This document shows positions 28,108 to 54,566 of a stretch of DNA of 64,000 bases, piece by piece. The position numbers were made by a program, and so were the translations under genes. The notes under the pieces are model-generated. The model did no database searches, was not told the origin of the DNA, and worked only from the letters and a program-made list of their open reading frames with translations. Within the stretch, counting starts at the first letter, position 1. Every line of letters begins with the position of its first letter. The DNA lies in assembly GCF_000379825.1 (NCBI RefSeq), contig NZ_KB903833.1:125022-189021 (forward strand), written 5' to 3'. The DNA comes from Longispora albida DSM 44784 (GTDB lineage Bacteria > Actinomycetota > Actinomycetes > Mycobacteriales > Micromonosporaceae).

Positions 28108-29612
28108 GGCGCGTTCCTCATTCTCAGGTGGATGGCTTCGGCGATGTCTTCGCGGTCCGGGGAGGGCCGGCCCGCCAGGTCGGCGATGGTCCAGGCGACG
28201 CGGAGCACCCGGTCGTAGCCGCGCGCCGACAGCAGGCCGAGGTCGAGGTGCCGGGTGAGGTCGGCTGTGACGGGCAGCGGGAGCCGCCAGGGCTGGGCCC
28301 GGAGCGCCCGGCCTGGTACTTCACTGTTGGTCCGCCAGCCCCATTCCAGCCATCTGGCCTGCGCGGCGGCACGGGCCTTGGCTGCCCGGGCAGCGACCTC
28401 GGCCGAGCTGTCGGGTACTGACTCGGACAGCAGGTCGGCAGCCGCGACAGGTTCAAGGGTGAGCTGGATGTCGACCCGGTCGAGCAGCGGCCCGGACAGC
28501 CTGCCGAGGAACCTGCGGCGTGCCAGCGAACTGCACTCACACGCCCTCGGCCCGGCAGCGCACCCGCAGGGGTTGGCGGCGATGACGAGCTGTGGCCTGG
28601 CCGGGTACTCGATGGTCCCCTGAACCCTCAGCAGCTGGACCCGGCCCGACTCCAGCGGCTGCCGTAACGCTTCGAGCGCGCCGCTCTGGAACAGCGGGGC
28701 CTCGTCGAGGAAGAGCACTCCCCGGTGCGCCAGGGTGACCGCTCCCGGCCGGGCAAGCCCGCTGCCACCTCCGACCAGCGCCGCCGGGCTGCTCGTGTGG
28801 TGGGGCGCCTGGTACGGCGGGCGGCGGATGAGGCCGGCTTCCGGCAGCAGGCCGGCGATGGAGTGCACGGCCGTGACTTCGAGCGCTGAGGCGTCGTCGA
28901 GTTCGGGGAGGAGCCCCGGCATGCACTCGGCCAGCAGGGTCTTCCCGGCTCCGGGTGGCCCGATCATGGCCAGGTTGTGCCCGCCTGCCGCCGCGATCTC
29001 CAGGCCCCACCGGGCCGTCTCCTGTCCGGCCACTGTGGCCAGGTCACCCGCTGGCGGGGCTGGGCTGTCACCGGCCGGTTCCGCCGCCGGCAGCCGCGTA
29101 CCTTCCCTGAAGTGGGACAGCAGGCCCCCGAGGGTGCTGGCCGGGGAAACCGCGATGCCGGGCACGAGAGCCGCCTCCCTGGCATTGCCCGCCGGGACGA
29201 TGGCCCGTGCGATGCCGGCCCTGGCCGCGGCGAGGACCGCAGGCAGCACTCCTGGCACCGGGCGGATCTGGCCGTCGAGGCCCAGCTCGCCGATCAGCAG
29301 GATGCCGTCGACCGCGTGGGCCGGCAACGACTCGTCGGCGCTGAGCAGCGCGATCGCGATCGGCAGGTCGAACCCTGAGCCGAACTTCGGCAGCGAGGCC
29401 GGAAGCAGGTTGACCGTGGCACGGTGCCGTGGCCACAGCTCCCCGGAGTTCAGGACGGCGGCGCGCACCCTGTCCCTGGCCTGTTGCAGGGCCGCGTCGG
29501 GAAGACCGGTCAGCAGCAGGCCTGGCAGCCCGCTGGTGACGTCGGCCTCCACCTCGACCAGCCGGCCCTCCGCGCCCTGGAGCGCTGCCGCTGTGACTCG
29601 CGCGTACCCCAT
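28104..29612 (-). CDS. yifB: YifB/ComM family Mg-chelatase-like AAA+ ATPase
   Basis: 502 residues from ATG 29612 (MGYARVTAAALQGAEG); the frame extends to 29720 but that part is inside yraN. N-terminal Lon-protease-like S5 domain, then MIGPPGAGKTLLAECMPGLLP (Walker A), HRGVLFLDEAPLF (Walker B), ANPCGCAAGPRACEC with a Cys cluster, and DRVDIQLTLEPV. ComM-type helicase implicated in branch migration during transformation. TGATG overlap with yraN and ATGA overlap with dprA. Confidence 0.95.
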   Translation of the reverse strand: MGYARVTAAALQGAEGRLVEVEADVTSGLPGLLLTGLPDAALQQARDRVRAAVLNSGELWPRHRATVNLLPASLPKFGSGFDLPIAIALLSADESLPAHAVDGILLIGELGLDGQIRPVPGVLPAVLAAARAGIARAIVPAGNAREAALVPGIAVSPASTLGGLLSHFREGTRLPAAEPAGDSPAPPAGDLATVAGQETARWGLEIAAAGGHNLAMIGPPGAGKTLLAECMPGLLPELDDASALEVTAVHSIAGLLPEAGLIRRPPYQAPHHTSSPAALVGGGSGLARPGAVTLAHRGVLFLDEAPLFQSGALEALRQPLESGRVQLLRVQGTIEYPARPQLVIAANPCGCAAGPRACECSSLARRRFLGRLSGPLLDRVDIQLTLEPVAAADLLSESVPDSSAEVAARAAKARAAAQARWLEWGWRTNSEVPGRALRAQPWRLPLPVTADLTRHLDLGLLSARGYDRVLRVAWTIADLAGRPSPDREDIAEAIHLRMRNAP

Positions 29613-29965
29613 CAGAACGCCCCGCGCAGGTACTCGACCTTCGCCGGCCCCCGCCGCTGTGGCCAGACGCTCAGCACGTCGAACCGGACAGCACCCGGCT
29701 CCGGCCTGCCGTCGAGCCATCGGCTGGCGAGGCTGCGGAGCTGGTCCTGTTTCCGCAGGGTGATGGCTTCCGCCGGGTGCCCGTACCCGGCGCCGCGCCG
29801 GGTCTTCACCTCACAGATGACGAGAACGTCCCCGTCGGCCGCGATGATGTCCAGCTCGCCGTAGCGGCGCCGCCAGTTGCGGGCCACGATCCGCATGCCC
29901 GCCTCGGCCAGGTAGCGGGCCGCGACGCGCTCGCCGTACCGCCCGACTCCGTTTCTCGCCCCCAC
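29612..29965 (-). CDS. yraN: YraN (UPF0102) nuclease-like protein
   Basis: 117 residues. Holliday-junction-resolvase-like fold: GRYGERVAARYLAEAG, NWRRRYGELDIIAADGDVLVICEVKTRRGAGYG with Glu/Asp/Glu-x-Lys positions of a PD-(D/E)XK site. First gene of a yraN-yifB-dprA block with overlapping stop/start codons; it is also the last recognisable core gene before the accessory island. Confidence 0.93.
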   Translation of the reverse strand: MGARNGVGRYGERVAARYLAEAGMRIVARNWRRRYGELDIIAADGDVLVICEVKTRRGAGYGHPAEAITLRKQDQLRSLASRWLDGRPEPGAVRFDVLSVWPQRRGPAKVEYLRGAF

Positions 29966-30029: not shown

Positions 30030-30118
30030 GCCTGTGGATAAACATCCACCCTTGCCGAACAGGGGAAATAAAGATCAACTAGCGGGTCTGGTTATGGATG
30101 TGCACAGCCTGTGGATAA
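30030..30118 (+). repeat. Two direct repeats containing perfect DnaA boxes
   Basis: GCCTGTGGATAA occurs at 30030-30041 and 30107-30118. Each contains TGTGGATAA, the complement of the consensus DnaA box TTATCCACA. An A/T-richer patch (AAATAAAGATCAACTAG, ~30066) lies between them. The site lies between yraN and the graspetide cluster, at the junction of core and accessory DNA. Confidence 0.65.
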
Positions 30119-30133: not shown

Positions 30134-30166
30134 GCCCCCGCCGGGTAGCTGGTACCCAGCGGGGGC
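30134..30166 (-). terminator. Terminator of the graspetide operon
   Basis: GCCCCCGC (30134-30141) and GCGGGGGC (30159-30166), with further pairing inside (GGGTA/TACCC). On the minus strand it is followed by ATTTCTC. It lies 8 bp past the methyltransferase stop. Confidence 0.8.
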
Positions 30167-30174
30167 CGTGGGTT

Positions 30175-31299
30175 CTAACGCCAGTCGTTGTCAGGTTCGT
30201 CGATCCAGTAACGGGCGGGCCAGTGGGTGCTGGCAGTGATGCCGAACCGCTCACGGTCCGGGCGGCCGTGCTTATCCCATGTGGCGGCGGTGCGCTCGAT
30301 CTGTGCCCAGACACGGCGGGGGCCGCCCTCGGTCACGGTGCCGCTGCTGTCGAGTTCGGCCCAGGATTCACCGGCCCGGATGTACAGCTTTTCTGGCCCG
30401 TGGTCGTAGCTGATGGTGCCCGGGGCGGTGATGTGGGGTTCGTCGAGCTGGACCACGAACCTGAACCCTGGGTCGTCGAGGATGGCTGGGTCAAGGCTGC
30501 TGGGCCGGGTGGTGCTGTTGGTGTGGTCGCGGTCGCGGATGAGGGTTCCGCCATCGCGTAGAGGGTTGCCGACTGCTGCCCTGAGCCACATGAAGTGGCC
30601 TGGCTCTGCCAGGAACCGGCCGACCACAGTGTCAACGGCAACCCGATCGAGGACCACGAGGCTGCTTGTCAGCTCGCCACGGATGTCGGTCACGATGCGG
30701 CCTGCCCGGTGAAGCTGGCTGATCCACGCGGACGGGATCGCGGGGACGGCGCAGGTGGCGATGATCCGGTCGTAGGGGGCGTGCTCTGGCATGCCGAGTG
30801 ATCCGTCGCCTGACGTGAGGTGCGGGTGGTAGCCGAGGACGGCGAGCCGTTCGCGCGCGATGGCAACGAGTGACGGGTCGATGTCGATGCTGGCGACGTG
30901 GGTGTCTCCGAGGTGGTAGCACAGCAGGGCGGCGTTGTAGCCGGTACCGGTGCCGATCTCCAGCACCCTCTGCCCGGGTTGCGCGCCGAGTAGTTGCAGC
31001 ATGCGGGCCATGAGGCTTGGGCGGGTTGACGAACTGGTCGGGAACGTGAGGTCGGCGTCGGGCGCCTGTGCCCGCTGGGTGACCAGGGATTCATCCGAGT
31101 AAACCCCGTCGAGCCATTCGCCGCGCAGGTCAGGCTCAGCGCTGGAGACGAGGGCGTTGTCTGGGTAGCGGTAGAAGCGGGGTACGAACAGGTGCCGTGG
31201 CACGTCCTCGAATGCCGTGCGCCAGCCGGGTTCCAGTACGCCGAGGGCGTCGAGCTGGGCGGCCAGCGCGCGGGAGTGTGCGCGCCATTCGTTGGTCAT
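30175..31299 (-). CDS. PIMT-like methyltransferase of an ATP-grasp peptide maturase system
   Basis: 374 residues from ATG 31299 (MTNEWRAHSRALAAQL), overlapping the ATP-grasp stop as TGATG. The N-terminal half is protein-isoaspartate-methyltransferase-like: VPRHLFVPRFYRYPDNALVSS, then motif I VLEIGTGTGYNAALLCYHLG (~110) and IDIDPSLVAIAR. The C-terminal ~170 residues are the extra domain seen in the methyltransferases linked to graspetide clusters (the TIGR04188-like group, from memory). In fuscimiditide-type systems such an enzyme converts an Asp of the crosslinked peptide to aspartimide/isoAsp; the same is inferred here. Confidence 0.88.
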   Translation of the reverse strand: MTNEWRAHSRALAAQLDALGVLEPGWRTAFEDVPRHLFVPRFYRYPDNALVSSAEPDLRGEWLDGVYSDESLVTQRAQAPDADLTFPTSSSTRPSLMARMLQLLGAQPGQRVLEIGTGTGYNAALLCYHLGDTHVASIDIDPSLVAIARERLAVLGYHPHLTSGDGSLGMPEHAPYDRIIATCAVPAIPSAWISQLHRAGRIVTDIRGELTSSLVVLDRVAVDTVVGRFLAEPGHFMWLRAAVGNPLRDGGTLIRDRDHTNSTTRPSSLDPAILDDPGFRFVVQLDEPHITAPGTISYDHGPEKLYIRAGESWAELDSSGTVTEGGPRRVWAQIERTAATWDKHGRPDRERFGITASTHWPARYWIDEPDNDWR

Positions 31300-32264
31300 C
31301 AGCGGGTTCCGTTCATGAGCAGGTTGGCCAGGGTTGCGGCGATCGGAGCCCCGGTTTCGTCTTCGAGCCAGCCCCACTGCCCCATCGGATTGCCTTCCAG
31401 GAACCACCACGTTCCGGCGGGGTCGACCACGAAGTCAAACGCGCAGTAGGTCAGGCCGAAGGTAGCCATGTAGGCGGTGAGCTGGCTTGTGACATGTCGC
31501 GGTGTGTCAATGAGTTCGTAGCGCAGCGCGCCGAAGTCCGAGCGCCAGTCCACGTGAGCACGGTCGCTGTCAGCGTGGATCGCCACGGACAGCGGAGTCG
31601 CACCGATCATCGTGACCCGGACCTCGTAGCTTTTCGGTACCCAGGCTTGGAACAGGTGCGCGGTGACAGCGAGCTGTGCGGGGTCGACGGCGGCAGGATC
31701 GACTCTGGTCGTGTAGGTCATGAGGGGTTCAGCGCCCTCTGTGAGCACGATCGACGAGAGGGTCTTGCACACGATGGGGCTGCCAAGTGCTGCCGCCCAT
31801 TCGGCGAGCTGGGCGTAGTTGCTGGTGATCAGCGTCTTGGGAACGTTGAGCCCGCACCGGATCGCCGTGCACAGCCCGAGGGGCTTGTACTCGGCGGCGG
31901 CGACCCGGTGCGGGTGGTTGACCCACACAGCATCGAGGGAGGCGAGCACGCCCCCGAGCCCGAGGCGGGCCTCGACGGTCGCGAACACGGCATCGCCGTC
32001 CGACAACCCTTCCGGGAGAACGAACTTGGTGGGCCGCCGGTAGTACACGCTTCCGATCTCCCCCAGGTTCACGGTTACGTCATCGCCGTACAGCACCCCC
32101 TGCCAGCCGGCTTCCCCCGTTGATGCCGCCAGGTACAGGTGCCGGGGGAAGTCGCCGGTGTCCATGCAAACCACACGCGCAGCCCGCTTGCGCAGCGCAT
32201 AAACCACCGCATCGGCGGTTGAGTCGTCATGGGCGGTCAGCACGAGAATCGTGTTCGCGGTCAT
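31299..32264 (-). CDS. tgmB: ATP-grasp graspetide maturase (TgmB-like)
   Basis: 321 residues from ATG 32264 with GGGGAG upstream. ATP-grasp ligase of the peptide-maturase type: N-terminal VLVLTAHDDSTADAVVYAL, then NVPKTLITSNYAQLAEWAAALGSPIVCKTLSS with the ATP-binding Lys, FQAWVPKSYEVRVTMIG, and the metal-binding C-terminal CAFDFVVDPAGTWWFLEGNPMGQWGWLE (Asp, Glu, Asn ligands). These enzymes join Ser/Thr hydroxyl or Lys side chains to Asp/Glu in a precursor. It sits between the precursor gene and the methyltransferase. Confidence 0.92.
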   Translation of the reverse strand: MTANTILVLTAHDDSTADAVVYALRKRAARVVCMDTGDFPRHLYLAASTGEAGWQGVLYGDDVTVNLGEIGSVYYRRPTKFVLPEGLSDGDAVFATVEARLGLGGVLASLDAVWVNHPHRVAAAEYKPLGLCTAIRCGLNVPKTLITSNYAQLAEWAAALGSPIVCKTLSSIVLTEGAEPLMTYTTRVDPAAVDPAQLAVTAHLFQAWVPKSYEVRVTMIGATPLSVAIHADSDRAHVDWRSDFGALRYELIDTPRHVTSQLTAYMATFGLTYCAFDFVVDPAGTWWFLEGNPMGQWGWLEDETGAPIAATLANLLMNGTR

Positions 32265-32279
32265 CGAGGCTCCCCGTTC

Positions 32280-32555
32280 CTACGTGTCTGTCGTGACGAC
32301 GGTGTTCGTGTCGCTCGTGACTTTGCCGTCCGCAGAGATCTCGGTCGGGTCCTTGCGTGTGTTGCTCGTGCTGACGGTGTCGTGGTTCTTGCTGGCGGGC
32401 TGCATCGGGCGTGCCAGGGTCGCGGCAAACGGGCGCAGCGCCCCGGGCGTGTGGGCAATCGGGTGAGTGACGCCGCCACGCTCGCTGAGCGGCAGCAGCG
32501 ACCCGCCCGGAACCAGGGGGTCAACCCTGGTGTCCCGGCTGTGCAGGGGGTGCAT
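32280..32555 (-). CDS. tgmA: Putative ATP-grasp-modified RiPP precursor (TgmA-like)
   Basis: 91 residues from ATG 32555, with AAGGAGG eight bases upstream. The leader contains the RPF motif (GALRPFAATLARPM, ~38-51) typical of ATP-grasp target peptides; the tail after ~70 is rich in Thr and Asp (SADGK, then VTSDTNTVVTTDT to the end), the expected ester donor/acceptor mix. Fifteen bp before tgmB. Short, low-complexity and located directly upstream of the maturase, as precursors are. Ring pattern cannot be assigned from one sequence. Confidence 0.85.
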   Translation of the reverse strand: MHPLHSRDTRVDPLVPGGSLLPLSERGGVTHPIAHTPGALRPFAATLARPMQPASKNHDTVSTSNTRKDPTEISADGKVTSDTNTVVTTDT

Positions 32556-32600: not shown

Positions 32601-33332
32601 CTATGCGGCGAGGAATGCCGCCGCACGTGCCGGAACCTGCACGATGGTGATCGCGCGGCGCAGCGCCCACGCGACGTTGTCGACGGTCACCCCGCCCGGG
32701 GTCACAGCGCGCGCCGTGCCCCAGTGCGAGTGACCACAGAACACATGGCTGGCGCCCCCGAGGTCAGCCGCGACGCCCAGCAGCCGGTTCCCGAGCTTCC
32801 ACTCAGCGGCCCGGTCACCGACCGTGATACCAACGCAGGGGGCGTAATGGAAAACGGCGATCTTCACATCGGTGTTCAGCGACGAGAGAGAGGTAGCGAT
32901 CTTCACGGCGGCCTCAGCGTGTTCTGAGTCAGCGGTCGGCCCCCACCCGCCGGGGAACCCTTTGCCGCCCGCGATCCCGATGGTGACGCCCCGGACGGCG
33001 AGCGTCGTCGCCCCGTTGTCCAGGATGGTCACTCCGGCATCGGTGAGGATGGCTGTCAGGTCGGCGATCTCGCGCGGCGATCGACCGTTCGTGTCGTGGT
33101 TGCCGAGGACTGCGACTTTCGGCAGCTTGCTGCGTGACAGGTCAGCGGCGACGCTGTACGCCTGCTCCCGGCGGCCTGCCTGGGTAAGGTCCCCGGGCAG
33201 AAGCAGCAGGTCAGCCCCGGCGTCCTCCGCGCGGAGGAACTCATCAGCGAGGGATTCGGGGTAGCTGTGGTGTCCCCGGTGCAGGTCGGACACGGCGGCG
33301 ATGCGTGCGGACATTGCGTACTCCATGATCAT
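32601..33332 (-). CDS. Metallophosphoesterase
   Basis: 243 residues from ATG 33332, chosen because it overlaps the preceding small gene's stop as ATGA and has GGAGG nine bases ahead; an ATG at 33314 is an alternative. Calcineurin-like motifs in order: SDLHRGHH, LLLLPGDLTQ, VLGNHDTNGR, VFHYAP and VFCGHSHWG, giving the full dimetal set. Substrate unknown. It lies upstream of tgmA in the same direction with a 45-bp gap carrying the tgmA ribosome site, so it could be an accessory of the graspetide transcript. Confidence 0.9.
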   Translation of the reverse strand: MIMEYAMSARIAAVSDLHRGHHSYPESLADEFLRAEDAGADLLLLPGDLTQAGRREQAYSVAADLSRSKLPKVAVLGNHDTNGRSPREIADLTAILTDAGVTILDNGATTLAVRGVTIGIAGGKGFPGGWGPTADSEHAEAAVKIATSLSSLNTDVKIAVFHYAPCVGITVGDRAAEWKLGNRLLGVAADLGGASHVFCGHSHWGTARAVTPGGVTVDNVAWALRRAITIVQVPARAAAFLAA

Positions 33333-33592: not shown

Positions 33593-33859
33593 TCAGGAAT
33601 AGGCAGACGTGGCCCGGTATAGGCCCGAGGCGTTCACGAACACACTGCGGCGGGCAGTCGCCTCACCACGCTCGTTGAGCTGGTATCCCTCAACCCACAA
33701 CCAACCAGCCACAGTGGACTTGCGCGGCGCCACCTTCGTCGCGCGCACCGTCAGCCCGCGTGCGAACTGAGGGCTGGCCTTATCGGTCAGCCAGAGCACG
33801 TCGCCCGGCTGCGGGGCACGATCCAGCAACCGGAAACGTGCGAGCAAGGCCGTCGTCAT
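33593..33859 (-). CDS. Hypothetical protein, SH3/PilZ-like small beta domain
   Basis: 88 residues, mostly beta-type: QPGDVLWLTDKASPQFARGLTVRATKVA, GWLWVEGYQLNERGE, RRSVFVN. The GDVLWL...RVTxV organisation resembles the 85-residue protein encoded at 36667-36924, suggesting related domains within this island. Start overlaps the upstream stop (ATGA). Function unknown. Confidence 0.65.
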   Translation of the reverse strand: MTTALLARFRLLDRAPQPGDVLWLTDKASPQFARGLTVRATKVAPRKSTVAGWLWVEGYQLNERGEATARRSVFVNASGLYRATSAYS

Positions 33860-34221
33860 GCCGAGACCCAGCCGCGCGCATTGAACTGCGGTTCACGGCG
33901 CACGGGTGCACTGTGCCGCCCCTCGCCGAGCATCAGCCGGAACGCCCGGCTCAGCAGCGGCGCAGAGGCCGGACGCTCGGCGACCTCGACGGGAATTGTC
34001 ATGTGCAACAGGTAGTCACGGGCCGCGACGGCAGAACGGCATGGAGACGAAACCTTGCAGATAGCGCACCGCCCCCCGCGCTCGGTGCTGTGTTCCCGCA
34101 GCGCACGGCGGGCCTGGTCAGCGCCCAAGTACAACGAGAGCGGCGGAACCGGCGCGACACCGATAGCCCTCGGCGGCCAGCCGTGGGAAACTGGGGGCGA
34201 GTCGAGCTGGTGATTCCTCAT
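33856..34221 (-). CDS. Hypothetical actinomycete protein with CxxC...PC motif
   Basis: 121 residues from ATG 34221 (MRNHQLDSPPVS), chosen for a GAAAGG ribosome site. The middle has GGRCAICKVSSPCRSAVAARDYLL, a CxxCx5C pattern found in many small actinomycete proteins next to regulators, probably a metal site. C-terminal half basic. Overlaps the next gene by 4 nt. No function known. Confidence 0.65.
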   Translation of the reverse strand: MRNHQLDSPPVSHGWPPRAIGVAPVPPLSLYLGADQARRALREHSTERGGRCAICKVSSPCRSAVAARDYLLHMTIPVEVAERPASAPLLSRAFRLMLGEGRHSAPVRREPQFNARGWVSA

Positions 34222-34289
34222 GGGTGTTGCCCTTTCGCTCTGGCCGGGGCGGGCGCTGGGAGCCAACCGATCGCCCGCCCCGGTGCTGT

Positions 34290-34520
34290 TTAGACCGCTG
34301 GCATATCGCCAGCGGGTAGCGCCCTGAGGTACCGCGTGATGTCCTCAGCATTTTCGAGCGCGTGATCGATAAGCGTAGTAAGGCCCGAGTTGCGTGGGTC
34401 TGCCAGCATTAGGGCAGCTTGGGCGCGGTCAATGCTCACGGCCAGGTTGCGCGAGTGAAACAGTGCCCGGCTGATCTTCTCCAGCGCGCGTGCACACTCT
34501 TGCGGCGATTCGATCGCCAT
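34290..34520 (-). CDS. Small alpha-helical hypothetical protein
   Basis: 76 residues from ATG 34520, with GGGAGG eight bases upstream; the frame reaches back to 34589 but would cross the operator. All-helical (QECARALEKISRALFHSRNLAVSIDRAQAALML ... LIDHALENAEDITRYLRAL). First gene of the leftward group divergent from the GntR gene and probably controlled by the operator between them. Confidence 0.65.
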   Translation of the reverse strand: MAIESPQECARALEKISRALFHSRNLAVSIDRAQAALMLADPRNSGLTTLIDHALENAEDITRYLRALPAGDMPAV

Positions 34521-34574
34521 GCCCGTTCCTCCCGTAGCCGATCGCTTACATGGGCTGACTTGCCGTGACGTTGG

Positions 34575-34642
34575 ATAGGTACCAATCATTTATGTGACCA
34601 CGGCCGCAGTCAAGCACTGAGCTAGATTTGGTTGGTACCTAT
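34575..34642. promoter_or_regulatory. Paired GntR operator in a divergent promoter region
   Basis: ATAGGTACCAA at 34575-34585 and its exact inverse complement TTGGTACCTAT at 34632-34642; each half contains the palindrome GGTACC. The centres are 57 bp apart. Right copy directly precedes the GntR ribosome site, left copy faces the small leftward gene. Confidence 0.75.
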
Positions 34643-34658
34643 ACCGGAGGATGGCAGC

Positions 34659-35438
34659 GTGACCCTGTACCGCAAGATCGCGTCAGAACTACGCGGCCAG
34701 ATCGCCGGCGGGCAACTGAACCCCGGCGACAAGCTGCCCACCGAGCCTCAGCTCGTCGAGATGTACAAGGTGTCGCGCAATACGGTCCGGCTCGCTATCG
34801 CCCAGCTCGTGAACGAGGGCCTGATCTCCGTGCAACCAGGTCGCGGCTTCGGCACCGTCGTTCGCGATCGAGTCGTGCTGACCTACCACGCCTCCCGCGC
34901 CGAACAGGTCGACGTCCTGGTCGCCGAGTCCGACGCCTACGTGACAGAGGTGCGAGACCAGGGACGGACGCCCACCCAAACCTTCGAGTTAAGGATCGAG
35001 GCCGTATCCGCCGAAATCGCGGAACGGCTGGAGATCGTCGAGGGCGACTCGGTGGTCGTAAGGTGCTGCACACGCAGCGTGAACGGCGAGCCAACGTCTA
35101 CGCAGGACACCTACTACCCGATGTGGCTTGCCCATGAAGTACCAGAGCTGATGAGCCCAACAGACATCGCGCAGGGCACAACGAGGCTACTCGCCGACAA
35201 GGGATTCCAGCAGCCCGCCGAGATTGACGAACTGCTGGCCAGGATGCCAACGCCAGCAGAGGTGCAGCGCCTTGGCCTTCCGGCAGGAACACCGATCATG
35301 GAGTACTACCGCACAGGGCTTCTGGCCGATGGGCGGCCGGTCCGCGTCACGACCATCGTTTTCCGGGGTGACGCGAACCGCGTGGTTTACACCCTCGGAG
35401 ACCCCAGCGTCTTCGCCCGGCGCGAGGCTGGCGAATGA
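34659..35438 (+). CDS. GntR/HutC family regulator with UTRA domain
   Basis: 259 residues from GTG 34659 with GGAGG eight bases upstream. N-terminal winged helix: YRKIASELRGQIAGGQLNPGDKLPTEPQLVEMYKVSRNTVRLAIAQLVNEGLISVQPGRGFGTVV; C-terminal UTRA effector domain with the closing MEYYRTGLLADGRPVRVTTIVFRGDANRVVY. Likely binds the GGTACC pair upstream and controls itself and the divergent genes leading toward the graspetide cluster. ATGA overlap with the GNAT gene. Confidence 0.92.
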   Translation: MTLYRKIASELRGQIAGGQLNPGDKLPTEPQLVEMYKVSRNTVRLAIAQLVNEGLISVQPGRGFGTVVRDRVVLTYHASRAEQVDVLVAESDAYVTEVRDQGRTPTQTFELRIEAVSAEIAERLEIVEGDSVVVRCCTRSVNGEPTSTQDTYYPMWLAHEVPELMSPTDIAQGTTRLLADKGFQQPAEIDELLARMPTPAEVQRLGLPAGTPIMEYYRTGLLADGRPVRVTTIVFRGDANRVVYTLGDPSVFARREAGE

Positions 35439-35986
35439 TCGTCACACGCGCGACGCTGGCTGACGTCGAGGTGATCATGTCATGGCGCCGTGAACGCGTC
35501 GCCTGGCTGGCAGCACGCGGCGAGGATCAGTGGTCGATCCCTCTCCCCACGTCAGCGATTGCCGCCACCGTTCAGTCAGGCCAGACATGGATGGTGTGGG
35601 ACGGCGACGATCCCGCCGCAACGCTCACCCTCACTGGATACACAGACCTCGACGACCTGTGGAAGCCCGATCGAGACCCCGAGGCTCTGTGGTACGCAGA
35701 GGACGACCCCGCTGACGCTTTGTACGTCGCAAAGATGATGGTGCCCCGGCGGCGCGCAGGCACAAACCTCGGGGCGGAAATGCTCGACTGGGCAGGCGGG
35801 CAAGCTTACCTCGCGGGGCTGACTTGGCTACGCCTTGATGCGTGGACCACCAACCCGCGACTGCACGCCTACTACGTCGGACAAGGGTTTCACCATGTGC
35901 GAACGATCGAAACCAGGGTCAGCGGGGCCTGCTTCCAACGGGCAACACAGCCCTACCTTGGGCGCCTACTGAAGACTGAAGGCTAA
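35435..35986 (+). CDS. GNAT family N-acetyltransferase
   Basis: 183 residues, overlapping the GntR stop by 4 nt. GNAT core: LYVAKMMVPRRRAGTNLGAEMLDWAGGQAYLAGLTWLRLDAWTTNPRLHAYYVGQGFHHVRTIE (acetyl-CoA loop RRRAGTNLG, C-terminal NxxLHAYYxxxGF). Substrate unknown. Base composition is less GC-biased than the core genes, in keeping with the accessory setting. Confidence 0.88.
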   Translation: MIVTRATLADVEVIMSWRRERVAWLAARGEDQWSIPLPTSAIAATVQSGQTWMVWDGDDPAATLTLTGYTDLDDLWKPDRDPEALWYAEDDPADALYVAKMMVPRRRAGTNLGAEMLDWAGGQAYLAGLTWLRLDAWTTNPRLHAYYVGQGFHHVRTIETRVSGACFQRATQPYLGRLLKTEG

Positions 35987-42567: not shown

Positions 42568-45078
42568 TCAGCCTCTCCGGTTCAGGTACCGGTCACCGGT
42601 ACGGGCTGCGGCGGCCACTGCCTCGGGCCGCTGGGTCAGCACGCCCTCGACCATGTCGCTGACCGCGCGTTCTCCAATCTGGACAGTCACGTAAACCGGC
42701 CCGCCGCCGCCCGCGCCGAGCATCCCGGCCAGGCGGTTCAGTGGAATCACGGCCTCGTCCTGGCCGCCCTCGCCGACCACGGCCAGCCGCCCGCCCGGGG
42801 TCGCCGGGACGATGCCGCCCTTAGCCAGCATCGGAATGTCGGGGAACAGGTCCGGCACCGAGAACCCCTGGCCTCCGATGCCGGGCACCCAGTCCGGGAT
42901 ACGGATCGAGAACCCGAGGTCCAACCTGTTCCACAGGCTGATCAAGAAGTTCAGCCCGGACCGTCCGGCGCTGACCAGGCCGTCGAACAGGCCAGACGCC
43001 GCCGACGTGATGCGGCCCTTGAGCCCGAGCACGAACCCGACGAACGAGTCGATCTTGGATGAGATCCAGCCGAGCGCGGCCGACGCCCCGTCGAAGATCA
43101 TCCGGAAGTAGCCGATCACCAGGTCACGAGCCCAGCGCAGCACGCCGAGCAGCAGGTCCCAGGCACCCCGCCAGATCGACAGGATGAAATTCAGGTACCA
43201 GGTGACGGCGGCGACGATCCACGACCACACAGTTTTGATCGCGCCCCAGACGGCCTCCCAGGCCGCCACGGTCGCCTTTTTCACGGTGTCCCAGTTGGCA
43301 ATGATCAGCGCCACCACTGCGATCACGAACGCGATGACCCAGCCGATCGGCCCCATCGCCACCACCCACGCGGCGGCCATCCGTGCGGCCTGCATGAGGC
43401 TCTGAGTACCCATGAGAATCCAGCCGCCCACCATCCGGGCGAACGTCAGGGACGCGACACCAGCGGCCTGCGCCTGGGCGGCCTGTATGACCAGCCACGC
43501 GGCGGCCGAGCGGGCGGCCTGAACGCCGGACTGCACGGCCAGCAGTACCCAGCCCGCGACGTGACGGGCGAACGTCACAGCGGCCGTGGCAGCGGAGCGG
43601 ACCGCGCCGCCGTCCATGAGCGCGTACGCGACGAGCAGGCGGCCGGCGTTCCAGATCGCTTGTGCGCCAAGGAAAATCCAGCGCGCCACCATCGCCACGA
43701 CCTGAGCGGAGTGCACAGCGGCGGCACGGATCGCGGCGACTTGCGTCATCACCCACGCGGCGGCCGTCTTGACGCCGGTGACGGTGGCCGTGACGCCCAG
43801 GGCGATCAGGTGCGGCAGGAAGATCGCGGCGATGATCCCGGCGACGACTTGCAGCGGCACCTTGTTGGCGTCGACCCAGTGATAGAAGTCCGATAGGGCC
43901 GGGATGATGTCGCCAGAGATGAATCCGGCCACCAGCTTCACGGACGGCCCGAAGTTGGCCGACAGGTAGCCGGTGACCTCCTTCAGTACCGGCAGGCCCT
44001 TACCACCGACGAAATCGACGAACGCCGTCTGCACCTGCCGTTTGAACGCCTCAAGGCTGCTGGCTGCCGTGTCGTGCAGCGTCGCGCCAGCCTTGTCGGT
44101 GGCTCCGGTGAGCTGGCCGAGGCCGGCAACGGCGCTGCTGGGGTCCAGCGCGTACAGCGCACCCTGCAAGTCCTCGGACTTGGTGCCGAACAGCCCGAAC
44201 GCGACAGTGGCGGCGTCCGCCTTGCCTTGGGTCTTGCGCAGCCGGTCGAGCACCTCGTCGAGGGCTGCGGCAGCGGCCGGGCCGCCCTTGGCGACCGCCG
44301 CGCGCATCTTGTCGGCGTTGAGGCCAAGGGCGGCGAAGCTTGCCGCTGACTCGGCGGTCCCTTCAACAGCGCGGATCGCGAACTCTTTCAAGGCGTCCGC
44401 TGCAACATCGCTGTCCCTGGCACCGGCCTTGATCGCCTGTGACAGCAGCCCGAGGGCCTGCGGTCCGGACAGCCCGAGCTTGGCGAACTGAACCGAGTAC
44501 TCGTTGAACGTGTCAACGAGGTCGTCAGCCTTGTTCGCGCCGTTCTGCGCGCCGGCCGTGATCAGGTCGAACGCTTCCTTGGCGTTCTTCGCCAGGCCGT
44601 TGCGGAGGATGTTGCCGACCGCTGTCGCCGTTCGGCCGACTTCCTCGCCAAGCACCTCGGCCACGGTCAGCAGCCCGCCCGACACCTGCTTGATCTCAGC
44701 GACCGTAGCGTCACGGCCCAGGATGCCGTTCTGGGTAGCAGCGCGGATGGCGTCGCTGACCCCTGCTAGGGATTCGCCGTAGCCTGCGGAGTACAGCGCC
44801 CCGGCTGCCTGCCCGTACCGCTTGGCCTCAGGGCCGGTAGCGCCGAGCTGGGCGGTCAGCCTGGCGTTCGCCGCCTCGGTGTCCATCGCCCCGGCCAGCC
44901 CGCCGACGAGAGCGGCCCCGATGGCGATGCCGGCCGCAGCCGCCGCGATGGCCCCGGCTTTGAGGGTGCCGAGCAGACCCTCGAACGCGCCCTCTGTCTC
45001 GTCAAGCCCCTTGCGGGCCTGGCTGCTGTCGATCGAGACCGTGCCGAACAACTCACCGACGTTGAGGGCCACGAGCAC
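42568..45078 (-). CDS. Phage tape measure protein
   Basis: 836 residues from GTG 45078; a GTG two codons later (45072) has the better GAGGGG spacing. N-terminal helices, a TMP core (SGGLLTVAEVLGEEVGRTATAVGNIL), then from ~430 to ~590 hydrophobic helices with an approximate 40-residue repeat (AARSAAAWLV...FARMVGGWILMGTQSLMQAARMAAAWVV), and a C-terminal tail-tip region with GGGGPVYVTVQIG. At about 0.15 nm per residue this predicts a tail near 125 nm. Acts as ruler and in DNA delivery. Confidence 0.9.
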   Translation of the reverse strand: MLVALNVGELFGTVSIDSSQARKGLDETEGAFEGLLGTLKAGAIAAAAAGIAIGAALVGGLAGAMDTEAANARLTAQLGATGPEAKRYGQAAGALYSAGYGESLAGVSDAIRAATQNGILGRDATVAEIKQVSGGLLTVAEVLGEEVGRTATAVGNILRNGLAKNAKEAFDLITAGAQNGANKADDLVDTFNEYSVQFAKLGLSGPQALGLLSQAIKAGARDSDVAADALKEFAIRAVEGTAESAASFAALGLNADKMRAAVAKGGPAAAAALDEVLDRLRKTQGKADAATVAFGLFGTKSEDLQGALYALDPSSAVAGLGQLTGATDKAGATLHDTAASSLEAFKRQVQTAFVDFVGGKGLPVLKEVTGYLSANFGPSVKLVAGFISGDIIPALSDFYHWVDANKVPLQVVAGIIAAIFLPHLIALGVTATVTGVKTAAAWVMTQVAAIRAAAVHSAQVVAMVARWIFLGAQAIWNAGRLLVAYALMDGGAVRSAATAAVTFARHVAGWVLLAVQSGVQAARSAAAWLVIQAAQAQAAGVASLTFARMVGGWILMGTQSLMQAARMAAAWVVAMGPIGWVIAFVIAVVALIIANWDTVKKATVAAWEAVWGAIKTVWSWIVAAVTWYLNFILSIWRGAWDLLLGVLRWARDLVIGYFRMIFDGASAALGWISSKIDSFVGFVLGLKGRITSAASGLFDGLVSAGRSGLNFLISLWNRLDLGFSIRIPDWVPGIGGQGFSVPDLFPDIPMLAKGGIVPATPGGRLAVVGEGGQDEAVIPLNRLAGMLGAGGGGPVYVTVQIGERAVSDMVEGVLTQRPEAVAAAARTGDRYLNRRG

Positions 45079-48581: not shown

Positions 48582-49925
48582 CTACAGCCCGGTCACGGTG
48601 CAGAACGCGGAGGGGCGGGTCACGGCGAACGCGACTCGTTCCTCGGCCAGCAGCGCCACCAGGTTCCGGATGAAGAAATCGGCGTGCGCGTCGGAGATGG
48701 TGACCGTGGTCTGTTCCCGGTCCCACAGCACGGCTTTGGAGAAGTCGGCCACGAGGCCGGTGCCGGCGGGCATGATCTCGGACTCGACGACCGGGACGCC
48801 CCACGCGGTGCGGGGCCCGATGCCCCACGGGCCCGAGCCGAAGTAGCGGCCCTGGGTGTCCTTGAGCAGGTCGAGCTTTTCGACCTCGACCGGGTTGAGG
48901 ACGATGCCGCTGGGTGCGACCCGGCCGACCGTGCGGGCCTTGGTGATCGCCTTGCGCAGCGCATCGGGGAAGGTGTCCGCGCCCTTGGCGATCGTCTGGA
49001 TACCCGAGGTGCCGAGGATGCCGGGCAGGTTCTCGCCGACACCCGAGCCGTTGAGGATCTGTGCCTCTTCGGTCTCGGCCAGGTCGGCGGCCAGCTCGTC
49101 ACGGATCAGGCCCTCAAGCTGGGCCACGTCCGCCAAGGCGCGCTTGGTGGCCGGCACCCACTCGGCGAGCGTCTTCACGGTCGCCGTGCGGCGGGCGAAC
49201 GCCCAGGACCCCTCGGGCTTGTACCCGCCAGCCGGGTCGTTGACGAGCGCGCCAGCGCCACCCGGGGCGGTCGGCGGGGCCGAGCTGGTCGCCTCGGGCA
49301 CCGGGGCGGCGGCGTTGGTGTGGCTCGTCTGAACGACGTACTCGACGGTGTCCGACGTGGTGCGCCGTACCGAGATCAGGTCGCGGACGGTCAGTGCCCG
49401 GCGCCCGAGCATCTCGACGATGTCGGTGCGTTCCGGGACCACGAACGGGCCGGCGCTGGTCGGCGAGCCGCCGACGAACAGGGCCTTACGCGGAAGGTCG
49501 ACGGGGATCGGGTCGGACTGCACCCGCGCCCGGTCGGGCACCCGGACCTGGCCGTACTCGTCACGGCCGAACGCGCCCATCAGGCTCTTGAACTGAGCAC
49601 TGCCGACGACCTGTAGGCCGAGGCTCGCGGCCTTGGCGCGGGTCGGGTCCTCGCCCTGGGCACCGAGGTCGCCGCGGGCGGTGTCGATGTCGTCGAGGCC
49701 AAGGTCGGCGGCGAGCTGGTCGGCGCGCTTGAGCAGGTCCTGATCCCGGCGCGCGGCCTTGATCTGCTCGACGAGCTGACCGGCGGCGTCAAGGTGCCCG
49801 GTGTACTCGGCGAACTCGTTGCTGTTCATGTCGCGGCCCTCGTCGAGGGCCTTGGTGGCGATGGCCTTAGCTGCTGCAAGGGCCGTGTTCGCCTCGTTCT
49901 TGAGGCGGGCGAGCTTGGCGGACAA
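48582..49925 (-). CDS. Major capsid protein, HK97 fold
   Basis: 447 residues from TTG 49925, supported by GGGGAG eight bases upstream. The N-terminal ~100 residues are a coiled-coil delta/scaffold domain (AKLARLKNEANTALAAAKAIATKALDEG...LVEQIKAARRDQDLLKRAD), expected to be removed by the neighbouring protease. The HK97 core includes VKTLAEWVPATKRALADVAQLEGLIRDELAADLAETEEAQILNGSGVGENLPGIL and GVPVVESEIMPAGTGLV. Builds the icosahedral shell. Confidence 0.92.
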   Translation of the reverse strand: MSAKLARLKNEANTALAAAKAIATKALDEGRDMNSNEFAEYTGHLDAAGQLVEQIKAARRDQDLLKRADQLAADLGLDDIDTARGDLGAQGEDPTRAKAASLGLQVVGSAQFKSLMGAFGRDEYGQVRVPDRARVQSDPIPVDLPRKALFVGGSPTSAGPFVVPERTDIVEMLGRRALTVRDLISVRRTTSDTVEYVVQTSHTNAAAPVPEATSSAPPTAPGGAGALVNDPAGGYKPEGSWAFARRTATVKTLAEWVPATKRALADVAQLEGLIRDELAADLAETEEAQILNGSGVGENLPGILGTSGIQTIAKGADTFPDALRKAITKARTVGRVAPSGIVLNPVEVEKLDLLKDTQGRYFGSGPWGIGPRTAWGVPVVESEIMPAGTGLVADFSKAVLWDREQTTVTISDAHADFFIRNLVALLAEERVAFAVTRPSAFCTVTGL

Positions 49926-49988: not shown

Positions 49989-50681
49989 CTAGGCGGCGTC
50001 GAGCGCCAGGTCGAGCGCCAGCTCGGCGGCGGTGTCACGACGGGGCCGGGGCAGCACCTTGACCCGTGCGGGTTCCTCGGTGTCCGGGGCGTGGCCGTGG
50101 ATGGCCTTGCTCTGGCAGGCCGCGCCCAGGCGGACAGCGGCGTCGTGCATGTGCTGTAGGTCGGCCAGGTCGGTCGTGCTGTTGCGGCGGCCTTCCTTGA
50201 CGGCCAGCAGGCTCGTCGCCTGGTTGGCGCCGATCAGCGTCGGGCCGACCTCGTACACCTTGAGCTTGCGCAGCTCCAGCACGTCGGCCCCCTCGTGCAC
50301 ACCTGGGGCGGCGTCGAGGATGTCGTACGCGAAACTGAACTGGGTAACCCTGCGGCCTTTGAGCAGCCGGTACACCTGGGCCGCTTTGGGGGCGTCGAGG
50401 TCGAGCAGGCCCCGGACCCAGAGGCCCTCGCCGGTCTCGGCGGCCTCGATCACGTGCCCGATGTGGTAGTCCGGATCGTCCGACCGGTGACTCCAGATGA
50501 TCGGGATGGGGTCGCCGCTGGCCTCCCACTCGGCCAGGGTGTCCGTGAACGCTCCCGGCATGACCTTGTCACCGACCGAGTCGACATTGCCGAACACGGA
50601 GACGATCGCCTCGAACTCCCCGGCGGGGGCCTCGGGGCCGCCGGCCTGCTTGATCCGGGCACGGCAGGTCTTGAGCAGCAC
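49989..50681 (-). CDS. HK97-family prohead protease
   Basis: 230 residues from GTG 50681, which shares its G with the portal stop (TAGTG) and has GGGAGG eight bases upstream. S78 protease pattern: EFEAIVSVFGNVDSVGDKVMPGAF, IIWSHRSDDPDYHIGHV (catalytic His) and VTQFSFAYDI (catalytic Ser), then an Arg/Pro-rich tail. Cleaves scaffold domains during capsid maturation. Confidence 0.9.
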   Translation of the reverse strand: MLLKTCRARIKQAGGPEAPAGEFEAIVSVFGNVDSVGDKVMPGAFTDTLAEWEASGDPIPIIWSHRSDDPDYHIGHVIEAAETGEGLWVRGLLDLDAPKAAQVYRLLKGRRVTQFSFAYDILDAAPGVHEGADVLELRKLKVYEVGPTLIGANQATSLLAVKEGRRNSTTDLADLQHMHDAAVRLGAACQSKAIHGHAPDTEEPARVKVLPRPRRDTAAELALDLALDAA

Positions 50682-52597
50682 TAGGAATCCTCCCGGTCGG
50701 CGGTGGTCAGGCGCATGTCGCAGGTGCAGCCGGCCCGGTCGTCCTCGTCGAGGACCCGGTCGCCCGGCCACCGCGCGCCGTTGCTGAACTTGGTGCCGAT
50801 CGCTGCGGCCTCGCCGTCCATACGGGCGTGCGAGCTGCGCGGCCTGCTGCTGGTGACCACCCAGGTTTTGTGTGTGAACCCGGCGTGCGGGCCGGCGTCC
50901 TCGGCGGCGAACCCCGAGACGTTGGTGGCCTGCGTGATGGCGATCTGCCGGGCGCGTACCTGCTGGGCGGCCGTGAACAACGCCGTCAGCTCGGCGAGCG
51001 GATCGGCGGCGGCCTGTGCGGCGGCGACCTGTTCGACGGTGGCCTCGTTGATGGCCTCGGCGGCGTGCTCGGCGTTGGCGGCCAGCCAGCCGGTCATGGC
51101 GTCCAGCGCGGCGGCCTGGTCGAGGTCGCCCCCGGCGGCCAGCCCGGCGACGACCCCGGCAGCGTACTGCTGGTTGATGCCGAGCAGCAGCTCGGCCAGC
51201 TCCGGGTTCCACCGGTCCGGGTCGAGCAGGTCATCAGCCGCAGCCTTGGCCCCGGCCCTCGACAGCACCGCCCGGGACTGCCGCGCGAAGAACCCGGCGA
51301 GCTGCTCGGCGGCCTCGTCGACCAGCTGGCCGGGCGCGGCCTTCACCCGGACCCACCTGCCCGCCTTGCTGCGGCGGGCCTTGGGCGGCGGCGCGGAATC
51401 CCTCGGGCTGGCTTGCCCGCCCACCGTCACGTTCAGCGGGACAATCAGCTCGTCCCCGCCGGGCACGGTCGGCAGGTTGTTCCTCGCCCTGGCCTCGTTC
51501 GCGGTCATCCACGGTCGCCCGACCGAGGTGCTGAACGCGGTGGCCTGCTCGGTGAACGAGCCGTTGAGCTTGGCAGCGAGGTTGAACTCGACGTACACCC
51601 GGTTCGCGTCGGGCAGGTCGGGGACGAGCTGAGCCTCGATCACCTGCGTGATCTGTTCCAGCCACGGCCCCAGGGTGTCCGAGTAGAGCTGGCGGTGCTG
51701 CTGCTCCACATTGGAGAAAGTTGCGTGATCGAGAATGCCGACCATCGGGGGCGGGATGTGGAACGCGCTGGCGACCTCTTCCCTGGTCAGCCTGCGGGCC
51801 TCGATGTACTGGGCGTCGGCGGGCGAGATGGCCGCCGGGGTGAAGCTCATGCCGTCCTCAAGCACCGGCGTCCCGCCAACCTGCGGGCCGTCGCCGGTGT
51901 ACTGCGACTGCCAGGACTGCCGGAACCGCTGGCGCGCGGGGTCCGACCAGTTCGGGGCGTCCACGGGCCGGGACAGGTAGCCGCTCACCCTGGCCCCGTT
52001 GCGCCAGAGCTGCTCGCGGTAGGCACCGGCGGCGTAGTCCTCGGCCAGGACCTGGCGCAGTGTCTCGATCGGGGAGCTGCCCCAACCCGACGTACTGGGG
52101 TCGTAGCCGTGGAAGTGGACGACCTCGTCGGCCGTGAAGGTGTGCACTCCCCGGCCCCCGGCGAACTCGTACATGGCCGGCGACACCCAGCTCGGGCCGA
52201 CCGGGCGGACCATCCGGGGCGGCAGCCGCAGCAGCCCGAGCCCCGACGCGCCCCGGACCTTGAGCCAGAAAGCGTTGTCGAACAGGGCGAGGTCTTGGAC
52301 CAGGGCGTCGATCAACTGGTACCGGGTGACGCGCGGCCAGGGCGAGCCCAGCAGCACCGCGAGGGGGTGCTCGGCAAGGCGCTGCCGGTCGGTGTCGCTG
52401 ACCCTGCGGAACACTCCCAGGCCCAGTTGGGCGATGTTGCGGCCCAGGAAGCTAATCACGGTGCGCACCTGCGGCTGGGCCCGCCAGATCTGCGCGTAGT
52501 CGCTGACGAGGTTGTCCGACAGCCGCAGGTGCGTCGAGCCGGCGGCGATCGGGGCGGCCAGGGTGGCGATCTGGCCCGAGGACACAACGAACGCCAC
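50681..52597 (-). CDS. Portal protein fused to a MuF-like domain
   Basis: 638 residues from GTG 52597. Residues ~1-400 are an HK97-type portal (VRTVISFLGRNIAQLGLGVFRR, DNAFWLKVRG, WRNGARVSGYLSRP, PPPMVGILDHATFSNVEQQHRQLYSDTL). After a basic linker, ~430-638 match the phage Mu gpF head-morphogenesis domain, ending HKTWVVTSSRPRSSHARMDGE and CTCDM with a Cys pair. In most phages these are two genes; here they are one frame without a stop. Confidence 0.88.
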   Translation of the reverse strand: MAFVVSSGQIATLAAPIAAGSTHLRLSDNLVSDYAQIWRAQPQVRTVISFLGRNIAQLGLGVFRRVSDTDRQRLAEHPLAVLLGSPWPRVTRYQLIDALVQDLALFDNAFWLKVRGASGLGLLRLPPRMVRPVGPSWVSPAMYEFAGGRGVHTFTADEVVHFHGYDPSTSGWGSSPIETLRQVLAEDYAAGAYREQLWRNGARVSGYLSRPVDAPNWSDPARQRFRQSWQSQYTGDGPQVGGTPVLEDGMSFTPAAISPADAQYIEARRLTREEVASAFHIPPPMVGILDHATFSNVEQQHRQLYSDTLGPWLEQITQVIEAQLVPDLPDANRVYVEFNLAAKLNGSFTEQATAFSTSVGRPWMTANEARARNNLPTVPGGDELIVPLNVTVGGQASPRDSAPPPKARRSKAGRWVRVKAAPGQLVDEAAEQLAGFFARQSRAVLSRAGAKAAADDLLDPDRWNPELAELLLGINQQYAAGVVAGLAAGGDLDQAAALDAMTGWLAANAEHAAEAINEATVEQVAAAQAAADPLAELTALFTAAQQVRARQIAITQATNVSGFAAEDAGPHAGFTHKTWVVTSSRPRSSHARMDGEAAAIGTKFSNGARWPGDRVLDEDDRAGCTCDMRLTTADREDS

Positions 52598-52828: not shown

Positions 52829-54532
52829 TCACACCACCTCTAGGTCACGCTCGTCGTAAGCGCTGGTCTTGGGTTTGGGCGCGACCATCGCGCGGGCGAG
52901 GGCCGTCACCAGCGCCGAGATCCCGTCGATGTTGTCGCCGCTCTTTGCCTTGTCCGGCTTGACGTTGCCGGCGGCGTCCATCTGGACGGCGAGGTTGTCG
53001 AGCATCCACCGGGCCACTGGGTGACCGCCGTGCCGGACCACCGGCGCGCGGCTGGTTCCCTTGCGCAGCAACGTGTTCAGCTCTTTCAGCGGGGGCGACA
53101 TGCTGGCGTAGCCCTGCCCGATCGGCACCACCGGGGCCCCGGCCTCGGCTAGGTCCGTCACGAGCTGCGTGGCGTTCCAGCGGTCGTAGCCGAGCGCGGC
53201 GACCTGCAACAGGTCGAGGTCGGCGTCGATGCGCTGGCGGATGTGCCCGTAGTCGATCACGTCGCCCGGGGTCAGGGTGAGCAGGCCGTCGCGGTGCCAG
53301 ACACTCGCGTTGCCCGCCGTGCGCTTGTCCAGGTCGCCGAGGATCGCCTCGGGGGCCCAGAACCGGAACAGGCAGTCGTACCCGCCCGCGCCGTCCGGCA
53401 GCAGCCAGGCCAGCGCGGACAGGTCCGTCGTCCGGGAGAGGTCCAGGCCGCCGAACGCCACCCGCCCGGCGAGCTGCTGCTCGTCGAGCACCGGGCCAGC
53501 GTTGCGGTCCCACACCGCGAGGGGCAGGTACCGGGTCTGCTGCCGGGTCCTGATCCCGAGGTGCAGCCGCAGGTACGACGCCAGCTCGGCCGGGGTGTCG
53601 CGGGCCTTGGTTGCTTTGCCCGCCAGGTACTCGGCGGTCGGCGAGATGCCGTAGCCGGGGTTGGCCTTGCGCTGCGTCTCCGGGCTGAAAGGGTCGTCCC
53701 GCTCGCTGGCCCCCCAGATCACGCCGTACGTGGTCGGGTCGACCAGGGTTCCGGCGGCGAGCTGCTCGACCCGCCTTCTCTTCCGGCTGTAGATGGTGTT
53801 CGGCTTGCCTGCGTCGGCGGTCGTGATCAGGACCACGAGCGGCTGTTCCCGCGAGCCGGTGCCGGTCTCGATCGTCTCGACCAGGTCCGGCGTCGCGTGG
53901 ACGTGCAGCTCGTCGACCACGGCCGCGTGGACGTTCGCGCCGTGCAGTGCCTCGGCAACCGAGCTGACCACGGTGAAGTAGGACCCGGAGCGCGGGTGAA
54001 CTATCTTCTTGGCCAGTGCCCGGACGTGACCGGAGAGGGCCGGGGCGTGGCGGGCGAGCTGGCGTACCGGCTCGAACAGGTACGACGCCTGCCGCTCGGT
54101 GGTGGCGGCGGCGAGCACCTGCGCGCCGGGTTCCCCGTCGCCAGCCGTGAGGTAGATGGCCAGCCCGCCGGCCAAGGTCGTCTTGCCGTTCTTCCTCGGC
54201 ACATCGACGTAGCACTCGCGGATGATCCGCACCCAGCGCCCGGCCTCGTTCTGCCGTACCCAGCCCATGACGGGGGCGAGGATGTACGCCACCTGCCACG
54301 GGTCCGGGACGAGCGGCTGGCCGGCTAGCGCTCCCTGGGTGTGCCGCAGCAGCCCGAACGCCTTGAGGACCCGGTCGACACGCTCGGGGTCGAACCGGGC
54401 CCCGGGTAGCGTGCGCGGTTCCGGGGTCTTGTGCTTGGGCGGGCACGCCGGTAGCGGGATGCCCCGGCTGATCAGGTACCAGGCGACCTCGGGTGACAGC
54501 TTGATTTTCCGCAGTTGCGCCCGGCCCGGCAT
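52829..54532 (-). CDS. terL: Terminase large subunit
   Basis: 567 residues from ATG 54532; the open frame extends to 54802 but runs antisense-like through terS. ATPase: Walker A RKNGKTT (~113-119), Walker B HAAVVDELHVHA, coupling motif ITTADAGKP. Nuclease: FGGLDLSRTTDLSAL (Asp), ALGYDRWNATQL, and DGISALVTALARAM near the end. Translocates and cuts DNA at the portal. No clear ribosome site precedes the ATG, so the exact start is open. Confidence 0.92.
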   Translation of the reverse strand: MPGRAQLRKIKLSPEVAWYLISRGIPLPACPPKHKTPEPRTLPGARFDPERVDRVLKAFGLLRHTQGALAGQPLVPDPWQVAYILAPVMGWVRQNEAGRWVRIIRECYVDVPRKNGKTTLAGGLAIYLTAGDGEPGAQVLAAATTERQASYLFEPVRQLARHAPALSGHVRALAKKIVHPRSGSYFTVVSSVAEALHGANVHAAVVDELHVHATPDLVETIETGTGSREQPLVVLITTADAGKPNTIYSRKRRRVEQLAAGTLVDPTTYGVIWGASERDDPFSPETQRKANPGYGISPTAEYLAGKATKARDTPAELASYLRLHLGIRTRQQTRYLPLAVWDRNAGPVLDEQQLAGRVAFGGLDLSRTTDLSALAWLLPDGAGGYDCLFRFWAPEAILGDLDKRTAGNASVWHRDGLLTLTPGDVIDYGHIRQRIDADLDLLQVAALGYDRWNATQLVTDLAEAGAPVVPIGQGYASMSPPLKELNTLLRKGTSRAPVVRHGGHPVARWMLDNLAVQMDAAGNVKPDKAKSGDNIDGISALVTALARAMVAPKPKTSAYDERDLEVV

Positions 54533-54566
54533 CGGGTTCGCTGGCGGTTGCGCAACCGGGCCGAGG

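Follow-up and report, generated by a model that had tools for sequence, protein, structure and literature searches.

The fuscimiditide system of Thermobifida fusca (ThfA/ThfB/ThfM) consists of a precursor, a single ATP-grasp enzyme and a PIMT-like methyltransferase. The inner ring of its product, T7-D18, encloses a 10-residue loop, and the outer rung lies at ±4 (T3-D22; PMC12291112). Amycolimiditide and SsfA(BM) are likewise stem-loop graspimiditides with Thr-Asp esters and an Asp-Gly in the loop, and a Gly follows the methylated loop Asp in all four characterised graspimiditides (PMC13001092). SsfA is also believed to employ the carboxylate at its C-terminus (PMC10787088). Statements on published work, here and below, refer to the consulted portions of the cited articles. 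Here we describe a cluster with the same gene trio as fuscimiditide in a stretch of 64,000 nucleotides (the window) from Longispora albida DSM 44784 (contig NZ_KB903833.1, positions 125,022 to 189,021). It is probably a graspimiditide cluster that a temperate, tailed-phage-type prophage has as its cargo, and its pathway would lead to a ladder of esters with a gap in its middle.

Small clusters for ribosomally synthesised and post-translationally modified peptides (RiPPs) have been described in prophages. Putative biosynthetic gene clusters occur in 0.6% of actinobacterial prophages (13/2112), several of them for class I lanthipeptides, and the section on these clusters names no graspetide (PMC10023795). 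No phage-borne graspetide appears in the consulted parts of PMC11118758, PMC11048544, PMC12360287, PMC8939145 and PMC10023795, nor in the other open-access literature searched, which is not proof of absence from print.

A probable three-gene graspimiditide cluster

By sequence, the window cluster is of the group 13 graspetide ("graspimiditide") type, and its enzyme class is already known. The three genes lie on the minus strand in the order precursor, ATP-grasp ligase, methyltransferase:

32280 to 32555, minus: graspetide precursor, 91 aa; contains LRPFAATLARPM and ends ...KVTSDTNTVVTTDT; its leader profile (A1) matches kin
within 32280 to 32555, minus: precursor leader (roughly residues 1-57), which carries the motifs LLPLSERGG and LRPF
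32283 to 32384, minus: precursor core, about residues 58-91
31299 to 32264, minus: ATP-grasp ester ligase, 321 aa, above the TIGR04187 cut-off; starts 15 bp past the precursor stop
30175 to 31299, minus: PIMT-like methyltransferase, 374 aa, PF01135, below the TIGR04188 cut-off; one-base overlap with the ligase at TGATG
30134 to 30166, minus: terminator, a 14-bp perfect hairpin

The initial annotation had placed a three-gene graspetide cluster at 30175 to 32555, and its coordinates, 15-bp gap and TGATG overlap were all confirmed, as was its strong terminator. The terminator region has an energy of -37.9 kcal/mol (z -4.0), which none of 200 shuffles equalled; a terminator scan that requires a T tract did not list the hairpin. 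The ligase scores 382.7 bits against TIGR04187 (E 1.2e-114; curated cut-off 350), and its solved relatives are 9bou, 5ig9, 5ig8, 7m4s and 7mgv. The methyltransferase covers positions 1-357 of the 363 in TIGR04188 (E 1.8e-103) and matches Pfam PCMT (3.8e-32). Of the 374 residues, those up to 223 are covered by the PCMT match, leaving about 150 aa at the C-terminus, and the best solved relative is 1dl5. The precursor has no NCBIfam or Pfam family match.

The genome (G000) encodes a second cluster, with a precursor 81% and a ligase 87% identical to those of the window. Because the trio recurs, including in this paralogue cluster, it is beyond chance. An orphan TIGR04188-like methyltransferase without an ATP-grasp neighbour is found elsewhere in G000 (L201 8518-9573; G000:C1, ~620.5 kb).

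Core conservation and predicted topology

Precursor kin were picked with the leader-only profile A1, which keeps the selection independent of the core. This precursor type occurs in 12 of 354 genomes of the family (15 places) and in 5 of 245 genomes drawn from the family of G474 (5 places). The only other genome of the genus that was searched, G001, has three ligases, which brings the genus to five clusters in two genomes. The core table comprises 12 distinct cores with a 10-residue loop, identical cores (L151-L154; L156/L160) being counted once each. Three cores with 8-residue loops (L157, L158, L184) were kept outside the table and counted separately, and L186 (G1067:C43; E 3e-5 to the leader profile), whose loop can be anchored in more than one way, was excluded before the count for that reason. 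Under one of the anchors, this distant precursor also lacks the -4/+4 pair and keeps the -8/+8 pair. G1019 carries three near-identical full-ladder precursor copies (L156, L160, L161), and a close relative lies on the IMG/VR contig L219.

T60, T63, T71, D76, G77, D82 and D90 are invariant in all 12 cores, each of which has S or T at position 91. The initial annotation held that homologous clusters lacking a conserved Thr/Asp tail would speak against it; the aligned homologues retain the tail. Two further positions vary together. T67 and D86 are both present in six of the 12 cores (L148, L149, L150, L151, L156, L161) and both absent in the other six (window, L147, L155, L182, L183, L185), with no mixed case. 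By eye, the matching Thr and Asp are both present in the three loop-8 cores, giving a total split of 9/6/0, for which the chance is 1 in 5005 if relatedness is ignored. Seven pairs of N-arm and C-arm columns vary on both sides, and 67/86 alone is fully concordant among them. Enzyme classes, conserved residues and the paired absence of T67 and D86 are read from the sequence itself, as is the position within a mobile unit described below.

The kin pattern is most simply read as a ladder of nested rungs, T71-D82, T67-D86 and T63-D90, of which the lineage of the window would lack the middle one as a pair. The residues that may take part in the window core are:

32343 to 32345, minus: codon T71, predicted inner-ring nucleophile, partner D82; 12/12; 10-residue loop as in fuscimiditide T7-D18 (PMC12291112)
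32310 to 32312, minus: codon D82, predicted inner-ring acceptor; 12/12
32367 to 32369, minus: codon T63, predicted outer-ring nucleophile, partner D90; 12/12; symmetric at -8/+8
32286 to 32288, minus: codon D90, predicted outer-ring acceptor; 12/12
32325 to 32330, minus: codons D76-G77, predicted methylation/aspartimide site in the loop; 12/12; placed in the loop as is the aspartimide site of characterised graspimiditides (PMC13001092)

The window core is thus predicted to form the esters T71-D82 and T63-D90 with no middle rung, and an aspartimide at D76. Unlike fuscimiditide, it lacks the rung at ±4 and would have one at ±8. A third ester from T60 to the C-terminal carboxylate is possible, because T60, conserved in all 12 cores, has no Asp to pair with and the corresponding carboxylate of SsfA is believed to be used (PMC10787088). 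Compared by description, the product would have at most three cross-links (two Asp acceptors and the C-terminus), against four in amycolimiditide and five in SsfA(BM) (PMC13001092, PMC12291112, PMC10787088). The fuscimiditide-type trio with nested esters and an aspartimide step that had been proposed initially is supported by the enzymes and by tail conservation in kin clusters, and its suggestion of a new topology can now be made specific as a ladder that would lack its middle rung. The joint absence of T67 and D86 provides natural covariation evidence for nested pairing, and the gapped core predicts an outer ring size without counterpart in the cited graspimiditide literature. No gapped ladder was found in the open-access literature searched, whose scope does not include the 2023 survey of graspimiditide cores.

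We infer the ester pairing, the order of steps and the aspartimide as follows. The ligase would bind the LRPF-type leader, phosphorylate core Asp side chains and esterify them with upstream Thr residues. T71-D82 would close the inner ring around the 10-residue loop and T63-D90 the outer ring, the 67/86 rung being missing. The methyltransferase would then methylate the loop D76, and the backbone amide of G77 would close the aspartimide, which may open to isoAsp. A trypsin-like gene (55970-56671; Pfam Trypsin_2, 3.6e-10) was rejected as a general leader protease, with tblastn matches in none of the three other genus prophages introduced below. It sits in the window prophage, on the opposite strand.

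The cluster lies at the end of a prophage

The initial annotation overlooked the setting of the cluster, which is the right end of a prophage of about 38.7 kb. From about 39 kb to the end of the window, the minus strand encodes minor tail, tape measure, head, portal, terminase, DNA methyltransferase and primase genes. Eight of the ten scanned proteins, among them the integrase in L203 (the 20 kb that follow the window), have a PHROG match; the two at 36-38.7 kb do not. In L203 the integrase is followed by host DUF2469, rnhB (Pfam) and a lepB-like gene (by eye). The attachment cores of this integrated phage, which has integrase and virion genes, enclose the cluster. The principal features of the prophage around it are:

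30031 to 30041, minus: right attachment core (attR) TTATCCACAGG; host yraN (29612-29965; UPF0102) comes next
32601 to 33323, minus: calcineurin-like metallophosphatase, PF00149 6.6e-13; in the type-1 cargo prophages D (window) and C, not A or B
33593 to 34589, minus: three small ORFs (88, 136 and 99 aa), no family match; cargo or regulator module
34632 to 35438, plus: GntR/UTRA regulator, divergent; 75% identical in prophage B
35435 to 35986, plus: acetyltransferase-like ORF, no Pfam or PHROG match; its homologue at L207:5092-5640 matches PF00583 at 9.4e-4, below the cut-off
42568 to 45078, minus: tape measure protein, PHROG 1e-49
48582 to 49925, minus: major head protein, PHROG 9.7e-69
50681 to 52597, minus: portal protein, PHROG 3.6e-172
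52829 to 54802, minus: terminase large subunit, PHROG 1.5e-136
60310 to 63369, minus: primase/polymerase-like protein, PHROG
~67398 to 68561 in window numbering, past the window's end (L203:3520-4683): integrase
~68688 in window numbering (L203 ~4810): left attachment core (attL), which reads TTGTCCACACC, two bases off the pattern

The boundaries come from a comparison of 59-84 kb regions around four genus prophages: A (G001 at yraN; L206), B (G001 at ssb; L207), C (the G000 paralogue at ssb; L187) and D (window). They measure 40.4, 40.5, 39.1 and 38.7 kb, with the integrase at one end and the cluster at the other, and account for four of the five genus clusters; the cluster of A has another core type. 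Three stretches align between A and B: the integrase end (10,970 bp, 98.6% identity), the lysis region (4,026 bp, 93.8%) and the cluster end (4,185 bp, 97.0%). The ~19.7 kb between, with the virion genes, has no match of 150 bp at 1e-20. On the left, the identity starts at TTGTCCACAGG in A and TTATCCACAGG in B; on the right it stops at TTATCCACAGG, beyond which yraN and ssb follow, respectively.

The four regions, 261,223 bp searched on both strands, hold 10 copies of the pattern TT[AG]TCCACAGG. The left cores of A, B and C account for three of them and the right ends for the other seven, and none is found elsewhere; a second copy of the core stands 77 bp before the right core. The core TT[AG]TCCACA resembles the DnaA-box consensus, and the integrase may target DnaA-box-like sequences. 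Such a core is present at two different host sites, yraN and ssb.

All four prophages share the integrase (62-65% identity to that of the window), a lysis-region ORF whose homologue in C has a peptidoglycan-binding domain, the ligase and the methyltransferase. Among ten proteins of A, B and C, PHROGs identify the integrase (A, C), terminase (A, B, C), portal (A, B) and tape measure (A, B, C). A tblastn search at 1e-4 with the window's terminase and portal gave no match in A, B or C, though the terminases share one remote PHROG. The GntR and acetyltransferase-like genes of the window are shared with B only and the metallophosphatase with C only; the type-1 cargo of C and the window and the type-2 cargo of A and B therefore each combine with either regulator module. 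Since the cluster keeps its place while the virion genes differ, it may well be of benefit to these phages. An ORF at 55084-55911 is 91% identical in prophage C, though the phage genes around it show much less similarity; it has no Pfam match and looks PAPS reductase-like by eye.

Clusters in other genomes and virus databases

The fifth genus cluster (L188 7407-9821; G001:C1, ~855 kb) is of type 1, preceded by an XRE/DUF397-like pair and followed by an attR-like GTGTCCACAGG. It is perhaps a prophage remnant. Thirteen kin regions of other genera (L189-L200, L202) span 3.6-19 kb, and four of them (L190, L195, L197, L198) share an XRE-type regulator. Their clusters may sit on the chromosome or belong to unrelated elements.

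In IMG/VR, the window ligase alone retrieved one locus, L208, and a profile of 12 ligases retrieved 20 contigs, 16 with a methyltransferase beside the ligase. L234, L235, L237 and L238 carry ATP-grasp kin and have no methyltransferase match in the stretch searched. Phage genes were tested in full on L208/L220, with further findings at L231, L221 and L219. On the 71.9-kb contig L208/L220, the cluster separates genes for minor tail, tape measure, portal (8e-167) and terminase from an integrase gene, and so would hold the same place relative to attP as that of the window phage. L208 has no match to the structural genes of the four prophages at 1e-6. L231 has an integrase ~3 kb past the cluster, L221 a tail-fibre match ~8 kb before it, and L219 a replication-initiation match. 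Twelve of the 20 ligase loci lie 5 kb or less from a contig end (hand arithmetic), which fits cargo beside an attachment site and also host flank in predicted proviruses, and was not used as proof. A tblastn search of 50,697 INPHARED records with the ligase gave just two distant matches: MT835913.1 (phage record, human faeces; 33%) and KF114876.1 (Leptospira phage; 26%).

Alternative readings

Several results weigh against a phage-borne, gapped-ladder graspimiditide cluster. The methyltransferase, at 346.7 bits, falls short of the curated cut-off of 380 for TIGR04188, and the GRASP_targ model TIGR04186 finds nothing at the window locus up to E 10. The absence of a precursor-family match is what the initial annotation had named as counting against its call; TIGR04186 may cover only part of precursor diversity. 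The 14 kb of L188 and, at 1e-6, the 13 regions of other genera have no match to the structural genes of the four prophages. The attachment core is imperfect at two of eight prophage ends (window left; C right, which reads GTGTCCACAGG, one base off). The four prophages were located via their ligases, so that the cluster is present by construction, and no search was aimed at prophages that lack it. None of the four outgroup genomes showed an empty site, DUF2469 being absent within 9-9.5 kb around yraN in each of them. The gapped cores fall into two clades of the ligase tree, both well supported (100/99, 98/94); the T67/D86 state requires at least two changes, of which just one is forced by starred branches, and the independent evidence therefore amounts to one or two events. 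T/S at 66 also runs counter to D at 86 (concordant in 1/12).

A host-encoded cluster that merely adjoins the phage attachment site, with the prophage ending before it, would agree with the position of L188 outside any recognisable prophage and with the wide spread of ligases above the TIGR04187 cut-off, found in 30/300, 31/397 and 46/394 genomes of the family, order and class draws. It would also agree with the first search for a long att repeat, whose best exact repeat between the margins, 14 bp and GC-rich, was taken as chance and rejected; the short core emerged from the four-prophage comparison. We nevertheless consider it very unlikely, as the nearly identical clusters of G001 occupy two host sites that are unrelated to each other, identity breaks off at the same core on either side, and the paralogue C is arranged alike.

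For the core, the gap could reflect a decaying precursor, in which T67 and D86 were lost by drift and T71-D82 is the sole ester formed. The few events behind the gap, and the mobility and duplication of the cluster, speak for decay. T60, T63, D90 and the C-terminal S/T are nevertheless kept in all six gapped cores, and the ligase and methyltransferase frames are open in three genus copies, which makes it unlikely. Use of T66 instead of T67 would explain why T/S stands at 66 in five of the six gapped cores and in none of the ladder set, but no gapped core offers an Asp or Glu partner at 83-89 and L185 has Asn at 66, so we regard this as improbable. A pamtide-like product, on which the methyltransferase acts alone and the ligase is idle, has a precedent in PIMT-only RiPPs (PMC13001092, PMC10787088). 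With a ligase that is intact and above the curated cut-off in the window and in both genus kin, such a product is hardly credible.

Possible function of the cargo

For a phage-borne cluster, we favour a role in lysogenic conversion, in which the product would compete with or exclude other phages or bacteria. Placement beside the attachment site is typical of lysogenic-conversion cargo, and the cluster holds that position in prophages whose virion genes differ. No known defence system was recognised: among nine proteins, PADLOC gave generic matches only, to mad2 (methyltransferase fold, 2.7e-17), PDC-S10 (metallophosphatase, 5e-8) and Csa3 (GntR regulator, 2.5e-4). Phage exclusion is a reasonable first function to consider, since anti-phage lanthipeptides of Actinomycetota are RiPPs that protect the cell from phages (PMC12360287). 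These belong to another class and lie in host defence islands, whereas the window cluster is probably phage cargo.

We speculate, with more doubt than confidence, that aspartimide graspetides are a recurrent lysogeny-linked cargo of temperate actinophages, kept beside attP as virion genes are exchanged, whose product serves the partnership of phage and host, and that the gapped core represents a distinct topology. Such a role could lie in the exclusion of rival phages, the killing of non-lysogens or a signal, and if true would be the first function for an orphan class.

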